Made by a program: the position numbers and the translations under genes. DNA of 64,000 bases from Pseudomonadota bacterium (GTDB taxonomy: Bacteria > Pseudomonadota > Gammaproteobacteria > Burkholderiales > Burkholderiaceae_C). This document shows, one piece after another, positions 7,840 through 46,997 of this stretch. The DNA lies in NCBI GenBank assembly GCA_021848345.1, contig JAJZUV010000001.1, forward strand, positions 310,001 to 374,000. Reading direction: 5' to 3'. The notes beneath the pieces are model-generated. The model was not told the DNA's origin, did no database searches, and saw only the letters and a list, made by a program, of their open reading frames with translations. Positions within the stretch are counted from its first letter, which is position 1. Every line of letters begins with the position of its first letter.

Positions 7840-8100
7840 CCGGCCCCTACGGGCCGGCGGAGCCGTTCCTACAATCTCGTGGTTTGAGCTCGTCCCGCCC
7901 AAGTGGGCGGTGTCGTGACGAGGCGCACGACTCCCGCGGGAGTCGTGCGGCGCGGGCTCGCCGGGCCGCGCCGATACCTGGGGCAGCCTCATTCACCCCG
8001 CCGGCGCCGGGCCTTTTCCGGCCAGTTCGTGGGGACCCACCACAAGCTGTAGTCGCCCGTCTCCAGGCGCCGGGGCCCAAGAGGCCCGGGTCATCCGATG
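7840..8100. other. Hairpin-dense non-coding stretch upstream of GGDEF-EAL gene; candidate structured RNA
   Basis: The 418-bp gap 7778-8195 has no credible gene; the frame open through it encodes only Arg/Pro-rich low-complexity sequence. Within it I count successive strong stems: CCGGCCC/GGGCCGG at 7840-7857; CCGCCC/GGGCGG at 7895-7910 enclosed by CTCGTC/GACGAG (7889-7894 with 7917-7922); a 26-base perfect palindrome at 7924-7949; CGGCGCGG/CCGCGCCG at 7948-7955 and 7966-7973; then smaller ones including GTGG/CCAC and GGGCC/GGCCC up to about 8100. This density exceeds what I see in other gaps here. It could be a structured 5' leader of the downstream gene, a separate RNA, or a cluster of palindromic repeats. 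I do not recognise a known family. Confidence 0.4.
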
Positions 8101-8195
8101 GTTTCGTCGCGCAAGCGTGCCGGCCTCGTGCCAGGCTGCGTCGCGCGTGCAATCCGCCAGGGTGTCGAGGTAGGCGGCGACACCGGTTGCGAGCG

Positions 8196-9887
8196 ATGAA
8201 ACCCAAGGGCGTATGCGAGCTGCACCTTTCGGCGTGCGGTCTGATCGAATCCTGCGAGGGCATGACCCAGAGCCTGTTCGGCGAGACGCCGACGGCCCTG
8301 CGGGGCCAGCTCCTGGCCAGCCGTCTGGGGGCGCAGTCGCGCGCGAGCTGGCGCGCATGGTGGCGCGAATTCTGGCGCGAATCCGGACACGACGGGCCGC
8401 GCCGCGATGCCGTCGCGGCGCGGCCCGCCAGCCAGGATCTGACCCTGGCGCGTGCGGACGGCGGCTGGATTCCTGTCTGCGCACGGCTGCGAGCCGCCCA
8501 CGCGCACGAGCCCGGGCGCGTGGTGCTCTCGCTGCAGGCCTTGACGACCAGCCCGCTGCGCGGCGGCGTGCGTGCCCCGGATGCGCTGCACGACGGGCTG
8601 ACCGGCCTGCCCAATCGACGGGGCGCGCGCGAACTGATCGAGTCGACGGTGGTGCCGGGCGCGTACGAGGGCGATTCGATCTCGGTGGCCTGCGTCGACC
8701 TGGACAACTTCCGCAGCGTCAACGAGGGCTACGGGCACGATGTTGCGGAAAGCGTGCTGCGCGCGGTCGGCGACGCGCTCAGGCGCTGCAGTGCCGGCTT
8801 CGGCTGCGTGTGCCGCACCGCGGGTGACGAATTCCTCGTCGTGCATCGCGGTCGCGACAGCGCCGAGGACATGCGCGAATTCGTGCCGGCGCTGATGCGT
8901 GCCATCCACGAGCCGCTGGACATCGGCGGCGAGCAACTGATCGTCACCGCCTCGGTGGGCGTGGCCACGCGCGAATGCCGCGACGTGGACTTCGACGCGC
9001 TGATGCAGCGTGCCAGCCACGCCATGAGTCGGGCCAAGCGCCTGGGACGCAACACCTGGTATTTCGCCCCGGCGCAGATCCTGCCCGATACCCGGCAGCA
9101 GGCGATCAAGACCCGCCTGTATCGCGCCATCCAGCTCGGTGCGCTGGAGTTGCACTATCAGCCCATCCTCGACCTGGCCAGCGGGGAACTGCGTTCCTTC
9201 GAGGCGCTGATGCGCTGGGACGATGCGCAACTGGGCCGGGTCAGCCCGGGGGTGTTCATCCCCGTGGCCGAGGAGTGTGGACTGATCGCCTCGCTGGGCA
9301 GCTGGACCCTGCGCCAGGCCTGCCGCCAGGCGGCGCGCTGGCGCCGCATGCCGGGGTGTCGACACGCGATCGCGGTGAACGTGTCGGCGCTGCAACTGCA
9401 GCGCGGCGAATTCGAGGCGGAACTGCGTGCCATGCTCGAAGCCGAGTGCCTGGAGCCTGGAATGCTCGAACTCGAGGTCACCGAATCGGCCTTGATCCAC
9501 GACGCGGCGCATCTGGCCGAGATGAGCGCTCGCCTGCGCGCACTCGGGGTCGGCGTGGCCATCGACGATTTCGGCACCGGCTATTCCAACCTGCTCTATC
9601 TCAAGCACTTCCATCCGAGCAAGATCAAGATCGACCGCAGCTTCGTGCAGGGCATCGCGACCAGCGCGGAGGATCGGGCGATCGTGCGCGCCGTGATCGA
9701 CATGGCGCATGCGATCGGCGCGCGCGTGGTGGCCGAGGGCGTGGAGTCCGCGCAGGTCTGCGCGGAGCTGCGCCGGCTGGGGTGCGACGAGGCGCAGGGC
9801 TACCTGTTCGCGCGGCCCTGCGCCAGCGCCGACGTGGAGGCGTGGCTGGGTTCCACGCGCATCGCCGCCCTCGACGTTCAGGGTTGA
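8196..9887 (+). CDS. GGDEF-EAL domain protein, c-di-GMP signalling
   Basis: 563 residues from the ATG at 8196; longer starts in the same frame run through Arg/Pro-rich non-coding-like sequence and are rejected. Residues 1-125 look like a degenerate PAS-type sensor. A GGDEF domain begins near residue 131 (DGLTGLPNRRGA) and carries AGDEF instead of GGDEF near residue 208. An EAL domain follows with the catalytic signature FEALMRW (E at about 336), DDFGTGYSN and VAEGVE, so phosphodiesterase activity toward c-di-GMP is expected. The altered GGDEF may be inactive or regulatory. There is no transmembrane segment, so it is cytoplasmic. The ribosome binding site is weak. Confidence 0.88.
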   Translation: MKPKGVCELHLSACGLIESCEGMTQSLFGETPTALRGQLLASRLGAQSRASWRAWWREFWRESGHDGPRRDAVAARPASQDLTLARADGGWIPVCARLRAAHAHEPGRVVLSLQALTTSPLRGGVRAPDALHDGLTGLPNRRGARELIESTVVPGAYEGDSISVACVDLDNFRSVNEGYGHDVAESVLRAVGDALRRCSAGFGCVCRTAGDEFLVVHRGRDSAEDMREFVPALMRAIHEPLDIGGEQLIVTASVGVATRECRDVDFDALMQRASHAMSRAKRLGRNTWYFAPAQILPDTRQQAIKTRLYRAIQLGALELHYQPILDLASGELRSFEALMRWDDAQLGRVSPGVFIPVAEECGLIASLGSWTLRQACRQAARWRRMPGCRHAIAVNVSALQLQRGEFEAELRAMLEAECLEPGMLELEVTESALIHDAAHLAEMSARLRALGVGVAIDDFGTGYSNLLYLKHFHPSKIKIDRSFVQGIATSAEDRAIVRAVIDMAHAIGARVVAEGVESAQVCAELRRLGCDEAQGYLFARPCASADVEAWLGSTRIAALDVQG

Positions 9888-12184: not shown

Positions 12185-14236
12185 TCAGCCGGCGGCGAGC
12201 GAAGCGTCCTCGCCGGCGAACCGAACCTGCGATCTTCCAGCGCGCTTGGCCTCGTACATGGCCGCGTCGGCGCGCAGCAGCAGGCTCTCGGCGTCCGCGC
12301 CGTGCTCCGGGAACAGCGCCACGCCCACGCTGCCCGATACCTGCGCCTGACGGGATTCCCCCAGATCGACCGCCTGCGACAACAGGGGCAGCACGCGCGA
12401 GATCACGGGCTCGGCGTCGCGGCGGGACTCCAGCCGGGTGAGCACGAACACGAATTCGTCGCCCGACAGGCGCGCCACGATGTCGTGGGCCCGCACCGCC
12501 TGCTGCAGGCGTTGCGCGGTGCGCACCAGCACGAGATCTCCGGCCTGATGGCCGTGGCGATCGTTCACGCCCTTGAAACCGTCCAGGTCCACGAAACACA
12601 GGGCCAGGCCCAGGCCCGCGCGCGCGTGCCAGGCCAGCGCCTCGTCGAGGCGGTGCTGCAGTTCGAGCCGGTTGGGGAGCCCGGTCAGGCTGTCGCGGTG
12701 GGCGAGTTCCGTGGCTTGTTGTTCGCGCTCCTTCAGGGCGCTGACGTCCAGCATCATCCACAGCGACTCGCCGCGTTCGCGCGACAGCATGGCGCCGTTG
12801 AGGTCGATCCACAACAGCTCGCCGTCCTTGCGCTGCATGCGCAGCTGGGTGCGGAACGTGCCGTGCTCGGCCAGCAGTCCGAAGGCGCGGGCTTCCAGGG
12901 CGTCGTAGTCCACGCCGGCGGGATGCAGCAAGCGCGGCGACTGGCCCAGCAGTTCCCCGGGGGCGTAGCCGAACATGCGTTCGGCCGACGCGTTGACCCA
13001 CACTGCCCGGCCCTCGCGCAGCTTGACCATGCCCAGCAGTTCGCTGTTGAGCATCGCATGCTGTTCGCGCACCAGATCCTGCAGGGAGGCGCGCGCGCGC
13101 TGCAGTTCGGTGAGGTCGAGCATCATCGAGCGCGTGCGCACGAACAGGCCCTCCTCGTCGCTGACCACGCTGGTGCGTACGTGCAGGTGACGCAGCGTTC
13201 CGTCGAGGGAAACGATGTCCAGGTCGTAGGGACGGGGGGCTTCTCCCGCGCGCATCTGCGCGAAGCGCTGCTCGAACACGGCCCGGCCTTCCGGGGTGGC
13301 GAAGTCCGCCGGGCCGAGCTTGCCCAGCGCCTGGTCGAGGGTGCACCCGAGCAGCGTGCAGGTTTGCCGATTCATGCGGATGAATCGCCCGATGTCGTCC
13401 AGCGAGAAGTAGCCGCAGGGAGCGCTTTCGTACAGGTCCTCCAGCTCCTCCCCGGCCGCGGCCAGTCTGCGCTCCAGGCGCTTGCGCTCGTCGACGTCGC
13501 GTGCCGAGACCTGGACCTCCGCCGGGCGCGGCCCGCCATCGAACAGGCCCTGCAGTTGCAGGTCGTACCAGCGGTGGCCCTCGCCGGGGTTGCGCAGGCG
13601 CAGTTCCACCTGGGCGGCGGGCCGGCGAGGGTGCAGCTGGGCCAGCGCGCGGCGCACGATGCGCAGGTCGGGAGGATGCACCACCGTCTCCCAGCCGAGG
13701 TCGCCGGGATCGCAGTCGCCCAGCGCGAAGCGGTCGCGCGCCGCGTCGTTGGCGAACAGCATTTCGCCGTCCACGCCGAAACGCAGCACGAGGTCGCGCT
13801 GGTCGCGCACGATGGCGCTGAGTTGTGCCTCGCTGGTCTCCAGTTTTCCCAGCGCGTCGCGCAGGTCCTGCAGGGTGTGCCGCAGGCGCAGGGCGGTCGA
13901 CTGCTGCGCCCGGATCACCAGGCCGATGAGCAGCGAGGACACGACGAAGGACAGCGCGGCCAGCAGGCCCGCGCGGGTGACCAGCAGCGACCAGTGCGGG
14001 GGGGTGAAGATGTAGAGTCCGGCGCCCGCTCCCAGCAGCGTGGCCCAGCGCCCGGGGCCGCTGCCGCACAGGTAGTAGGCGAGCACGATGGCCGGGTAGA
14101 AGGTGAGATAGGCGACGCGTTGCTCGACCGGCAGCACCATCAGGCGCAACGCGAGCGCGCCCGCCACGATGGCCGTGGCGGCGGCGTAGCGAGTCCCGGC
14201 GGAGCGCGCCAGGAGGTTGAAGTCCCGGATTCCCAC
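12185..14236 (-). CDS. Membrane PAS-GGDEF diguanylate cyclase
   Basis: 683 residues, GTG start. The first 130 residues hold several hydrophobic helices resembling the DUF4118/KdpD-type membrane sensor. They are followed by about three PAS domains (NRQTCTLLG, HVRTSVVSDEEG and EGRAVWVNASAERMFGY regions) and a C-terminal GGDEF domain beginning HRDSLTGLPNRLEL. The signature reads SGDEF near residue 592, a variant that is often active. It should make c-di-GMP in response to a signal sensed in the membrane or by the PAS domains. It is convergent with the GNAT gene and divergent from the phosphoesterase gene. Confidence 0.85.
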   Translation of the reverse strand: MGIRDFNLLARSAGTRYAAATAIVAGALALRLMVLPVEQRVAYLTFYPAIVLAYYLCGSGPGRWATLLGAGAGLYIFTPPHWSLLVTRAGLLAALSFVVSSLLIGLVIRAQQSTALRLRHTLQDLRDALGKLETSEAQLSAIVRDQRDLVLRFGVDGEMLFANDAARDRFALGDCDPGDLGWETVVHPPDLRIVRRALAQLHPRRPAAQVELRLRNPGEGHRWYDLQLQGLFDGGPRPAEVQVSARDVDERKRLERRLAAAGEELEDLYESAPCGYFSLDDIGRFIRMNRQTCTLLGCTLDQALGKLGPADFATPEGRAVFEQRFAQMRAGEAPRPYDLDIVSLDGTLRHLHVRTSVVSDEEGLFVRTRSMMLDLTELQRARASLQDLVREQHAMLNSELLGMVKLREGRAVWVNASAERMFGYAPGELLGQSPRLLHPAGVDYDALEARAFGLLAEHGTFRTQLRMQRKDGELLWIDLNGAMLSRERGESLWMMLDVSALKEREQQATELAHRDSLTGLPNRLELQHRLDEALAWHARAGLGLALCFVDLDGFKGVNDRHGHQAGDLVLVRTAQRLQQAVRAHDIVARLSGDEFVFVLTRLESRRDAEPVISRVLPLLSQAVDLGESRQAQVSGSVGVALFPEHGADAESLLLRADAAMYEAKRAGRSQVRFAGEDASLAAG

Positions 14237-41929: not shown

Positions 41930-42075
41930 GCGATGGGGATTCGGGGAATGGAACTGGGGGGCGGGTGGCCGAAACCTTTGACCTAAAACAAGAGCATGCG
42001 CAAAGTCAACCCCCTGTTTGTGGAAAATAAGCTGCAACCCGATGCAAATTTCACAGGAATCAGTTAACTTTGTGC

Positions 42076-42160
42076 CTACTTTGGCAAACCCGTCGAAAGG
42101 CGGGGACGCAAAGCCTCCGGTCTAACGGCAGAAATGCCCATGACAGCGGGGTTGCCGGCG
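42076..42160 (+). ncRNA. Cyclic di-GMP-I (GEMM) riboswitch
   Basis: The conserved core reads GGCAAACC, then a CGAAAG tetraloop region, GGGACGCAAAGCCTCCGG, TCTAA, and the closing AGCGGGGTTGCC, matching the GEMM-I aptamer in order and spacing. The nucleotide equivalent to the ligand-pairing G20 appears to be G and the C92 equivalent C, consistent with c-di-GMP rather than cGAMP. It is in the 5' leader of the beta-helix lipoprotein gene, and so should tune its expression to c-di-GMP level. Confidence 0.93.
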
Positions 42161-42236
42161 CGAGTGCGCGTCGTGACTTCTCGAGCTGTAGACGTATTGG
42201 CCGCTCAAAGCGGCTGGATGGCAGCGTTGCCACGGT

Positions 42237-42255
42237 CCGCCCCGAAAAGGGGCGG
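42237..42255 (+). promoter_or_regulatory. Riboswitch expression-platform hairpin
   Basis: CCGCCCC/GGGGCGG with loop GAAAA ends 6 bases before the ribosome binding site AGGGAG (42262-42267). Earlier, GGCA/TGCC (with loop GCGT) makes an alternative small stem. There is no T tract, so control of translation or of RNA folding near the start is more likely than simple termination. Confidence 0.45.
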
Positions 42256-42275
42256 GGTCCCAGGGAGCAACCGCC

Positions 42276-44420
42276 ATGTCCAGTCTACAGAACCTGTTTC
42301 GCACCGCCGCACTTCCGATTCTCGCCGCGATGACCCTCGCGGGTTGCGGCGGCGGCGGCGGGGGCGCAAGCGGCGCCGTCGGCGCCACGGCGTCGACCCA
42401 GTCGTACACCAGTACGAGCAACGTGAACGCGCCCGGCGGCGGCACGACGGTGCCGGTCGTCTCGACGAGCACGACGTCGGCACCGAGCACGAGCACGAGC
42501 ACGAGCACGTCGACGCCCGCTCCCGTTCCCAGCAGCTTCACCGCCGAGAATTCGGTCCAGGTTCCGCATCTCGTCGCGGGTGTGAAGACCTGGGTCACGA
42601 TGGACCTTCCCTGGTCGTCTTGGACCAACGCCAACGTCACTACCGCGGGATCTTCCACGGGGACGACCTATTACGTCTCGCTCACGGGAAGCGACAGCAA
42701 CAGCGGAACCTCCGCCCAGAGGGCTTTTGCCACGGTGGCGCACGCGGTTTCGTTGATGCAACCCGGCGACACGCTGCTGTTCGAGCCCGGCGTCTATCAC
42801 CAGACGATCAACCTGGGCGGCGGGCTGTCCGGCACGAGCGGGCACCCCATCACCTTCGGCAACGCGGGAGGCGGCGCCGTGGTGCTCGACGCATCCCCGG
42901 TGATCGCGTCGTCGGCCTGGTCCGCGGTGGGAGGCTCGGTCTACCGGGCCAGCGTGAGCAAGACCCAGGACGGATCGACCAACCTGGCCGTGCCCAACGG
43001 CACCGATCCGTCCACCGCGATGGTCGTCGTCGTCAACGACAAGGCGCTTCGCCTGGCGCCCAATGACAACCCGGCCAGCGTCACGCCGGGGAGCGGCACC
43101 TTTGCCTACGACGGCTCCACGCTGACCGTGGATTTCGGCTCTGCAGTTCCCTCGTCGGCCACGGTGGTCGTGGCCAACGCGAACAACCCGAGCCCGATTT
43201 ACTGGTACGGCAGCAATGACCTCGTGTTCGACGGGCTGACCGCCGAGGCTGGCGGCAATTCCGGGATCTGGGGCTATGGAAGCTCCGTGACCATCGAGCA
43301 TTGCGTCAGCCAGTACAACATCAAGGCCGGCATCAATTTCATGATGATGTCGGGCAACGCGAACGCGAACAACCAGGCGCTGGATAACCTGGTCTACATG
43401 AACTCGCTGCACAACTGGCCCCGCGGGACCAACGGCTTCTACTCGTCCGGCGGGGGCTGGAGCGGCGGACTCGCCTTCAGCGACGCCTACAAGGGAGTCG
43501 CGCGCGGCAATCTCGTGATCGACAACGGTGGCGAGGGGATCATCAGCTACGGCAGCGGCCCGTCGGAGACCACCGGAAGCGTGCTGTTCGAGAACAACCT
43601 CAGCATGGACAACTGGTCCATGCAGATGTATTTCGACAATCAGCCCAACGACATCGCGCGCGGCAACCTGCTGTACTTCTCCGGTTTCGACACCAGCACC
43701 TGGGAGTCCCAGACGGACGATCTGTACAAGTACAGCACCTGTCTGGCGCTGGCGGACGAGGCGAACTCCTCGGCCAACATGACGGCCAACCTGGCCAATT
43801 CGCAGGTCTACAACAATCTGCTCGTCGGATGCCGCCTGGGGATCACCGAGTACTGGGAAGGCAACGTGCTGTCGGGTCAGCACGGGCTGAAGAACACGCT
43901 GATCGCCAACAACACGATCGTGCTCATGCCCACGACGCCAGCGTCCACCTACACGGCGGGCATCTATCTGTGGGACAACGGCACCGCCAACACCAACAGC
44001 GCCGTGGTGAACAACCTGGTCATCGGATGGGACTCGACCGAGCCCGTGATCTGGTATCAGGGAACGGGGGCCGACCCGGGTGTGCAGGTCGATCACAATG
44101 CCTACTGGAACGCCGGCAACAGCACCAGCTTCATGCTGGGGTTCAACACCGTGTCGAAGGACACCTTCGCGCAGTGGCAGGTGGCGACCGGATACGACCT
44201 CGCAGGCTTCTTCGCCAATCCGATGCTCGTGGGCACGAGCGCGCTGTCCAGCCCGTCGCATGCACCGTACGACCAGGCCAACGCCGTGCCGCAATCGGGC
44301 TCGCCCTTGATCGGGGCCGGCATCGACCTCTCGTCGTCTTCGCCGGTGGCTGGTGAGACCTTCTCGACCAACCTGGCCGGCCTGGCTCGCGGTTCGAGCT
44401 GGACCATCGGGGCGTTCTGA
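42276..44420 (+). CDS. Secreted lipoprotein with right-handed beta-helix domain, c-di-GMP riboswitch controlled
   Basis: 714 residues. The N-terminus is a lipoprotein signal: hydrophobic stretch, then LAGC with the lipidated cysteine at 24, followed by a Gly run and a Ser/Thr-rich linker (about residues 38-88). From residue 128 the sequence starts TYYVSLTGSDSNSGTSAQRAFATVAHAV and continues with NNxVI/NGGEG-type repeats, the signature of right-handed parallel beta-helix proteins such as alginate or chondroitin lyases and mannuronan epimerases. A specific activity cannot be read. It is likely exported and surface anchored. Control by a c-di-GMP riboswitch suggests a role in matrix or surface polysaccharide handling. 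Confidence 0.8.
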   Translation: MSSLQNLFRTAALPILAAMTLAGCGGGGGGASGAVGATASTQSYTSTSNVNAPGGGTTVPVVSTSTTSAPSTSTSTSTSTPAPVPSSFTAENSVQVPHLVAGVKTWVTMDLPWSSWTNANVTTAGSSTGTTYYVSLTGSDSNSGTSAQRAFATVAHAVSLMQPGDTLLFEPGVYHQTINLGGGLSGTSGHPITFGNAGGGAVVLDASPVIASSAWSAVGGSVYRASVSKTQDGSTNLAVPNGTDPSTAMVVVVNDKALRLAPNDNPASVTPGSGTFAYDGSTLTVDFGSAVPSSATVVVANANNPSPIYWYGSNDLVFDGLTAEAGGNSGIWGYGSSVTIEHCVSQYNIKAGINFMMMSGNANANNQALDNLVYMNSLHNWPRGTNGFYSSGGGWSGGLAFSDAYKGVARGNLVIDNGGEGIISYGSGPSETTGSVLFENNLSMDNWSMQMYFDNQPNDIARGNLLYFSGFDTSTWESQTDDLYKYSTCLALADEANSSANMTANLANSQVYNNLLVGCRLGITEYWEGNVLSGQHGLKNTLIANNTIVLMPTTPASTYTAGIYLWDNGTANTNSAVVNNLVIGWDSTEPVIWYQGTGADPGVQVDHNAYWNAGNSTSFMLGFNTVSKDTFAQWQVATGYDLAGFFANPMLVGTSALSSPSHAPYDQANAVPQSGSPLIGAGIDLSSSSPVAGETFSTNLAGLARGSSWTIGAF
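42485..42508 (+). repeat. Hexanucleotide tandem repeat GAGCAC x 4 in coding sequence
   Basis: Four exact GAGCAC units in a row encode Ser-Thr repeats in the lipoprotein linker. As the unit is six bases, gain or loss of copies keeps frame and changes only linker length. Confidence 0.8.
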
Positions 44421-44492
44421 TCGTGGCCATCCGGCGATCTCGTCGCGGGCCGCACGGCGGCGAGGCCGCCGTGCGCGGCCTCCCGGGTTGCC

Positions 44493-46001
44493 TCAGGCTT
44501 CCAGCCGGAATCGCTCCACGTTGACGCGCAGCGCGGCCGCCTGGCCGCGCATCTGCTCGGCGGTGGCGGCCAGTTGCTCGGAGGCCGAGGCGTTGTGCTG
44601 AGTGGCGGCGTTCACCTGGGTCATCGCCGTGTGGATCTGGGCGATGCCGGTGGACTGCGAGGCGCCGGCGGCGTCGATCTCGGCGATCAGGGTGCTGGTC
44701 TTGACGATGCTGGGCACCATCTGCTCCAGCAGCGCGCCGGCGGCCTCGGCCTGCTTGAGCGAGGAGGCGGCCAGCTGGCTGATCTCGCGCGCGGCGACCT
44801 GCGAGCGTTCGGCGAGCTTGCGCACTTCGCCGGCCACCACCGCGAAACCCTTGCCGGACTGACCGGCGCGCGCCGCCTCGATGGCGGCGTTGAGCGCCAG
44901 CATGTTGGTCTGGTAGGCGATGTCGTCGACCACCGAGATGCGTTCGGCGATGGCGCGCATGTCCTGCAGCGTGCGCTGCACGGCCTCGCCGGTGCCGCGC
45001 GCCTGTTGCGCCGCCTGCTCGGCCATGGAGGCCGTCAGACGCGCGCTGTCGGCGCTGCTGCGCACCGAGTCGGCCGAGGCCTCCAGCGTGGCCGAGGTCT
45101 GCTCGATCGAGGCCGCCTGCTCCGAGGCCCCCTGCGATACGCTCTGCGCGGTCTCGGCCACCTGCTCGGAGGCCGTGGCCAGCTGGGTCGCGGTGGAGCG
45201 CACCTGGCCGATGGTCTCGCCCAGGCCCCGCACCATGTCGCGCATCGCGCTCAGCAACTGCCCGGTTTCGTCGGAGCGGCCGCGCGGCACCTCCAGCGCC
45301 AGTTCACCGGCGGCGACGCGGTGCAGCACGCCGACGGCCAGCGCCAGCGGGCGGGTGATGGAGCGGGTGATGGTCACCGCCAGCAGCGCGGCGATCACCA
45401 CACCGGCCACCCCCAGGGTGATGGCGAAGCCCAGGGCGTGATGGTAGGAGGCCAGCGCGCCGGCCATCGCGGCATCGTCGGCCTGTTTGCGCGAGGCGAC
45501 GAAGGCCTGCAGGGCGGCCTGCCAGCGCGCCTGCAAGGGACGCACGTCACGCAGCAGGTGCACGGTGGCGAGCATGCCCTGGCTGTGCAGCGCGAAATCG
45601 ACCACATGCTGAAGGCTCGCCGTGGTGCTGGCGGCGATCGCGGCGATCGCCGCCAGGCGCGCGCGGTCGGCCGGCGTATGCGCGTAGCCGGCCAGCTGGC
45701 GCATCTGCAGCGCGTATTCCTGTTCGTGCGCGGCCAGACGTTTGGCCGCGGCCTGGATGGATGTCGGGTTGATCAGCAGCACCACGTCGCGCCCGGCCGA
45801 GCCGATCTTCTCGGTGCTCAGCAGGGCGCCGTCCGCCAGGCGTTCGGCGCGGGCGTGGGTCCCGGCCAGGGTCTGCAGGCTGGTCTTGAGTTGCTGCATG
45901 TCGTGCACGGCCAACCCCAGCAGGCCGAGCAGCATCAGCACCAGTACGCCGAATCCCAGCGCGAGGCGGGGGCCGATGTTCAAGGTTCGGGAAGAAGTCA
46001 T
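44493..46001 (-). CDS. Methyl-accepting chemotaxis protein, membrane bound
   Basis: 502 residues from ATG 46001. The N-terminus has one membrane helix ([17 protein letters not shown]), followed by a periplasmic four-helix sensor domain of about 150 residues, a second helix ([19 protein letters not shown]), a HAMP domain and the MA signalling domain with its hairpin tip at about residues 357-395 ([39 protein letters not shown] region). It should send ligand signals to CheA/CheW. The ligand is unknown. It lies downstream of murI on the same strand, with a 105-bp gap. Confidence 0.9.
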
Positions 46002-46106
46002 GGCCCGAAAATGTAGGATTGCTACAAAATTCGGGCCACGGGGCTTACCCTGAATGCGCAACCGATCGGCGAATTCTTGTCGATCGCGGACGTCTGTGAA
46101 AGTTTA

Positions 46107-46997
<891 letters not shown>

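Follow-up and report, generated by a model that had tools for sequence, protein, structure and literature searches.

The window, the whole 64-kb stretch of DNA that was analysed, holds a c-di-GMP-I riboswitch aptamer (RF01051, 42073..42159, + strand) and, 116 nt behind the aptamer end, a gene for a 714-aa lipoprotein (42276..44420, + strand), defined by its ORF translation, Pfam PF13229 and an alignment of 13 homologs. Its neighbours encode an exodeoxyribonuclease III upstream and a chemotaxis receptor (44493-46061) downstream, both on the opposite strand; because the next downstream gene is thus oriented, the lipoprotein gene stands alone, as an earlier note on this DNA had said in placing the aptamer ahead of a single gene. 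This copy lies outside any exopolysaccharide (EPS) locus. The two c-di-GMP enzymes that the note had placed elsewhere in the window are a GGDEF-EAL protein (7884-9887, +) with the signature AGDEF and a PAS-GGDEF protein (12185-14236, -) with the signature SGDEF. No sigma-70-like promoter site was found in 41950-42320, nor was any terminator-like site, the latter in keeping with the absence of a clear terminator noted before.

The entire 64-kb window was scanned with Rfam at the gathering threshold, and RF01051 at 42073-42159 (+) was the sole match, with 85 bits against a cut-off of 35, an E-value of 2.4e-15 and full coverage of the model (1-87 of 87). The near-canonical GEMM-I aptamer described earlier is thereby recovered at its location, with the model beginning at 42073, 3 bases ahead of the start then given. 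A chance or artefactual aptamer is ruled out by this E-value in 64 kb together with retention in two orthologous loci, and the riboswitch is well formed and ordinary for its known class. It is also the only RF01051 site found in its own genome (3.26 Mb, 48 contigs), with one gene behind it, which agrees with the claim of a sole target; a further site may sit in the missing part of the genome, since the assembly is 93.7% complete.

By pairwise alignment, G42084, A42111 and C42155 correspond to what we take to be G20, A47 and C92 of Vc2. These Vc2 residues contact c-di-GMP according to the available parts of PMC4744006, and because their equivalents are present, c-di-GMP is the expected ligand, which the window aptamer presumably binds. 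A cGAMP variant was considered and set aside, the G20 equivalent being G, for which c-di-GMP is expected; this residue is given as a selectivity factor in the accessible parts of PMC9262584, and no mention of it in that role was located in those of PMC6274999. The window switch has the same aptamer class as Vc1 and Vc2 of Vibrio cholerae and, by this alignment, the same contact residues, and its leader is long and without an intrinsic terminator. It differs from both in its target, a beta-helix lipoprotein, and in a post-aptamer leader seen in this genus only.

The beta-helix lipoprotein and its relatives

Direct reading of the translation gives an export signal, MSSLQNLFRTAALPILAAMTLAGC, with the lipobox LAGC and Cys24, followed by a Ser/Thr-rich linker to about residue 85 and a beta-helix core from 86 to 714. 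The protein exceeds the cut-off of Pfam Beta_helix (PF13229; 27.7 bits against 25.9), so that with the lipobox the 714-residue exported beta-helix lipoprotein of the earlier note is borne out at the level of sequence. Among 12 scanned homologs, PF13229 was over the cut-off in six (window, L042, L065, L071, L074, L076), under it in five (L041, L063, L064, L069, L044) and without a match in L070. Pel9A-like PF22842 (L063, L074) and Chondroitinas_B PF14592 (L071) were also over their cut-offs, in each case with the match in the N-terminal cap.

Searched against PDB, the profile of 13 homologs, which are 49-93% identical to the window protein, had six matches with E-values of 0.1 or lower, whose best stretches fall between profile positions 18 and 121 (of 591). 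These include a xylosidase (3vst, 9.5e-16), a rhamnogalacturonan lyase (5olq, 2.5e-9), a lacto-N-biosidase (6kqs) and a PL6 chain (6qps); no PL31, AlgG or AlgE chain is named among the six. At the same threshold the catalytic part of the beta-helix had no match to any solved enzyme. The matched beta-helix enzymes, which we take to belong to the PL6 and PL9 lyases and the GH120 and GH136 glycosidases, have the cap motif and the beta-helix family in common with the window protein and differ from it in their catalytic part. The N-terminal cap thus appears, by sequence comparison, to be common to several enzyme families, and a match through the catalytic part, by which PL6 or PL9 membership is recognized, was not found, both PDB and Pfam matches being confined to the cap.

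Residues invariant in the 13 aligned homologs include K350, R383, E420, R462, D494, E495, R520, H536 and K539 (residue number is core number plus 85). The alignment (A2) left out L075, which has one internal stop, the partial matches L066 and L067, and the ortholog L043. An AlphaFold2 model built from four near-identical sequences had a pLDDT of 30.3, too poor to read the fold.

At E 0.001 the family was matched in 10 of 28 genus genomes, in G309 via the N-terminal part only, and in 10 of 299 family genomes, full-length in the own genome only and weakly at the N-terminus in the other nine. The own genome alone was matched by the 13-homolog profile among 369 class genomes (E 1e-40) and 398 phylum genomes (E 1e-25), cut-offs at which weaker relatives may be missed. 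No relative was found among 34 pattern stretches in viral contigs, and no distant homolog in plasmids.

Three relatives are 93% identical in their best segment, from the metagenome-assembled genomes Proteobacteria LL3.bin32 (L043) and ZJ1.bin49 (L044) and from Thiomonas sp. clean350 (L045). RF01051 is retained in the first two (84.8 and 86.3 bits). The third has a different signal peptide, and its sequence starts 47 nt ahead of the start codon; as these 47 nt are unlike the window leader, riboswitch control is supported in three of the four orthologs, and L045 may have lost it. G301 and G322 yielded no RF01051 site, though both hold lipoprotein homologs. The linker is encoded by runs of the hexamer ACGAGC, with 3 copies in the window (42489), 11 in L043 (6208), 11 plus 4 in L044 (5890) and none in L045, and because the copy number differs, so does the linker length among the orthologs.

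The own genome encodes two paralogs of the window lipoprotein (51% and 50% identical), both located in EPS loci. Paralog L042 directly follows a TviB-like (484.5 bits, cut-off 592) and a TviC-like gene (417.6, cut-off 760), in a stretch with the XrtA-system chain-length determinant TIGR03007 (421.4, cut-off 278.85), the ATPase TIGR03015 (366, cut-off 324.5), the outer-membrane protein TIGR03016 (154.6, cut-off 90.85) and, both under cut-off, a TIGR03018-like kinase and an EpsE-like glycosyltransferase. Next to paralog L041 are a Wzy_C-like gene (29.8, cut-off 31.7) and two that resemble the XrtA amidotransferase TIGR03108; the TviB, TviC, TIGR03108 and Wzy_C matches are all under the curated cut-offs. 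Behind a beta-helix paralog in an EPS cluster lies a gene (L094 13476-15158) for a lipoprotein that matches the Lactonase propeller of Pfam. UDP-GalNAcA is the product of TviB and TviC in the Vi pathway, and with such genes nearby a uronic-acid EPS would be a reasonable substrate; among the papers available to us, none on a Vi lyase was found. AlgG is a beta-helix protein encoded within the alginate EPS cluster. Paralog L042 likewise has its gene inside an EPS cluster, unlike the window copy, which stands alone under a riboswitch and has no AlgG or AlgE chain among its PDB profile matches.

Riboswitch sites and leader cassettes in the genus and family

RF01051 sites were found in 88 of 299 sampled family genomes and in none of 14 control genomes. 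Targets were assigned for the 28 loci outside the genus among the 30 listed (L002-L030 without L012), taking one downstream ORF per locus by length and third-position GC. Like the window, these GEMM-I sites precede genes for exported proteins; unlike it, 22 of the 28 lie before what look like secreted peptidases, and none of the 28 targets matched a beta-helix model. Eight are Pfam Peptidase_S8 and 14 form one lipoprotein family by phmmer, including L009, which matches sedolisin (PDB, E 6.7e-8). The other six comprise one spore-coat-U-like, one GspH-like and one Lcl_C lipoprotein and three without a match.

Within the genus, 12 of 28 genomes carry RF01051, at 16 places of which one is under the cut-off. 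Target genes were assigned by reading of translations, for all but the first place of G305 and both places of G302. GGDEF-EAL genes lie behind the first site of G320 (L082) and the sites of G299 (L085) and G312 (L087), and probably behind that of G315 (L086, where the ORF choice is ambiguous), an arrangement that suggests feedback on c-di-GMP turnover. Chemotaxis-receptor-like genes lie behind the second sites of G320 and G305.

Seven of the 16 places, in 6 of the 28 genomes, bear an aptamer and leader of the window type, with 83-98% identity to the window in the aptamer and 56-94% in the UTR. The similarity continues into the coding sequence, the first 26 codons being 62-95% identical in five of the six other sites and 40% in G240. 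Upstream of the aptamer it falls off, the 60 nt there being only 26-43% identical to the window at the four non-orthologous sites. A leader-block pattern, with zero mismatches allowed, found the seven sites (6 genomes) and nothing else in the 28 genus genomes; in the 299 family genomes it gave two matches only, both from this genus.

The signal peptide is alike in six of the seven sites, and the mature domains are of three types. When the window protein was compared with G309a, G309b and G307, blastp aligned the first 26 residues alone (58-69% identity, E 0.003-0.24) and the mature parts had no convincing match; the DNA gave blastn E-values of 1e-34 to 1e-51. Type 1 is the window beta-helix (G000, G311, G314). 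Type 2 comprises both G309 copies; they share 55% identity over 148 residues with the product of the G240 cassette, a gene cut short by the end of its contig. Part of type 2 is TIG-like (4hw6, E 0.004, PDB), and the sequence reads like a beta-helix, has no match in Pfam and resembles type 1 weakly in a profile comparison (hhalign probability 60%, E 8.5e-5). Type 3 (G307) has no match in Pfam or in PDB at E 0.1, and the G311 switch has a 73% identical relative as its second downstream gene, about 200 nt past the beta-helix gene. Where the window has its chemotaxis-receptor stretch (44447-46158), G311 (L080 5155-6944) instead has this type 3 lipoprotein gene, on the same strand.

TviC-like genes adjoin three of the four non-orthologous sites. 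TviC- and TviB-like genes, under the cut-offs, follow both G309 copies, the one copy scanned for it is also followed by a UDP-glucose dehydrogenase-like gene, and a TviC-like gene, also under the cut-off, lies immediately upstream in G240. Beside the G307 site an O-antigen-ligase-like gene was recognized by reading, with no NCBIfam match at 1e-20. Leader and signal peptide behave, in some Thiomonas relatives, as a plug-in unit placed ahead of differing EPS-associated domains.

A candidate expression platform and the proposed direction of control

Hairpin H1 (42156..42173, +) directly follows the aptamer and is paired in all seven window-type leaders, one of its pairs occurring as G-C, G-U and A-U. 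The element GUCGUGACUUCUC (42170..42182, +) is invariant in the seven, and its pattern matches solely at these seven sites in the 28 genus genomes; despite this invariance it has no conserved pairing partner. Hairpin H3, GGCAGCGUUGCC (42220..42231, +), is paired in 27 of 28 cells, with one two-sided change. Direct reading places the Shine-Dalgarno sequence AGGGAG and the adjacent GCAACC (42267-42272) at 42262..42272 (+), the latter being GCRAYC in 7/7 leaders. The proposed switching strand is GGUUGC (42150..42155, +), which consists of the 3' side of aptamer helix P3 together with the ligand-contact C and can pair with 42267-42272 in every one of the seven leaders.

RNAalifold, applied to the seven post-aptamer leaders, picked the GGUUGC x GCRAYC helix unprompted. 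That alignment (A4) had the 3' end of G307 out of register; with it realigned in A5, all 42 of 42 cells of the helix pair, the changes being G-U and on one side only. Column shuffles of the Shine-Dalgarno segment gave a 6-bp complement on the GGUUGC strand in 19 of 2000 cases, and in 56 of 2000 when the whole aptamer was allowed as partner. Whole-structure shuffles, a weak control, reached the overall pairing in 52 of 500 and the covariation score in 24 of 500. Enforcing the switching helix costs 4.2-13.9 kcal/mol relative to the aptamer-formed fold in all seven leaders; in that fold the Shine-Dalgarno sequence is more open in two of seven and the AUG in five of seven. Folding of single leaders gave no consistent masking structure. 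We regard the helix as a candidate translational platform.

In the mechanism that we favour, c-di-GMP would bind the aptamer, and GGUUGC would have two alternative partners, one inside the ligand-bound aptamer and the other GCRAYC next to the Shine-Dalgarno sequence, placing control at translation; ligand binding would then open the start region and turn expression ON. Vc1 before gbpA is a precedent for positive control (available parts of PMC4744006). The ON direction is a tentative choice, a little short of an even call and only slightly ahead of its opposite, and is put forward as a proposal only, because the helix is energetically costly, the shuffle controls are weak and the opening of the Shine-Dalgarno sequence is inconsistent. 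The opposite direction, with the same riboswitch and target as a translational OFF switch, is possible and somewhat doubtful: the ligand-bound leader would mask the Shine-Dalgarno sequence and the protein would be made at low c-di-GMP, for example for matrix loosening at dispersal. Vc2 is described as working in this way, masking a distant ribosome-binding site (accessible parts of PMC9262584), and in five of the seven leaders the alternative fold leaves the Shine-Dalgarno sequence more open than the aptamer-formed one does; however, the masking pairing of the window leader is not retained in G311, and the conserved pairing involves the aptamer strand instead.

Proposed role and its alternatives

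Our principal reading, which we hold to be evenly balanced between right and wrong, is that a canonical c-di-GMP-I riboswitch controls a lipid-anchored beta-helix protein acting on the cell's own EPS, probably one that contains uronic acid. The lipoprotein would be anchored at the outer membrane, and its beta-helix core would cleave or modify the polysaccharide. The earlier note had proposed a lyase- or epimerase-like activity on a surface polysaccharide. The link to polysaccharide gains support from the EPS neighbourhoods of the paralogs and from the sister cassettes; a lyase or epimerase activity stays a candidate, as the lyase and glycosidase matches reach the N-terminal cap only.

Adhesins are commonly under c-di-GMP control, and the lack of a catalytic-domain match to solved enzymes, together with a long Ser/Thr linker of variable length, would also fit a non-enzymatic, adhesin-like lipoprotein that binds the matrix and tethers EPS to the cell at high c-di-GMP. 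We think this unlikely, since many charged residues are invariant over the 13 homologs, beyond what a scaffold needs, and the N-terminal relatives are lyases and glycosidases. Foraging on the polysaccharides of other organisms, for which beta-helix lyases are often used and which the position of the window copy outside an EPS locus would suit, is improbable: EPS genes lie beside both paralogs and three sister cassettes, and the family, class and phylum samples yielded full-length relatives from this genus alone.

A broader form of the principal reading is speculative, and we would not expect it to hold in full: riboswitch, genus-specific translational platform (H1 plus GUCGUGACUUCUC) and signal peptide would recombine as a block before interchangeable EPS-processing domains, so that lineages remodel their own GalNAcA-type matrix with different enzymes under the same c-di-GMP switch.

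Available parts of PMC2829063 and PMC5481541 report EPS genes together with GGDEF/EAL or diguanylate cyclase genes in Thiomonas, and the word riboswitch is absent from both papers. Searches of literature mostly without subscription papers found nothing that joins a c-di-GMP riboswitch with Thiomonas or with a polysaccharide lyase, and by title and abstract none of the matches listed in a broader search describes this arrangement. Both the beta-helix lipoprotein as target and the recurrence of one switch, leader and signal peptide ahead of EPS-associated domains that have been exchanged are apparently new, at least to us, and are offered as a testable proposal. The compact, terminator-less GEMM-I leader would be useful for the study of translational control. 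If the proposal is true, c-di-GMP would, through RNA, govern a protein that reshapes the matrix itself, one switch-plus-signal block would serve unrelated exported domains, and this block would flag the beta-helix, the TIG-containing type and the family-less type as candidate matrix enzymes.
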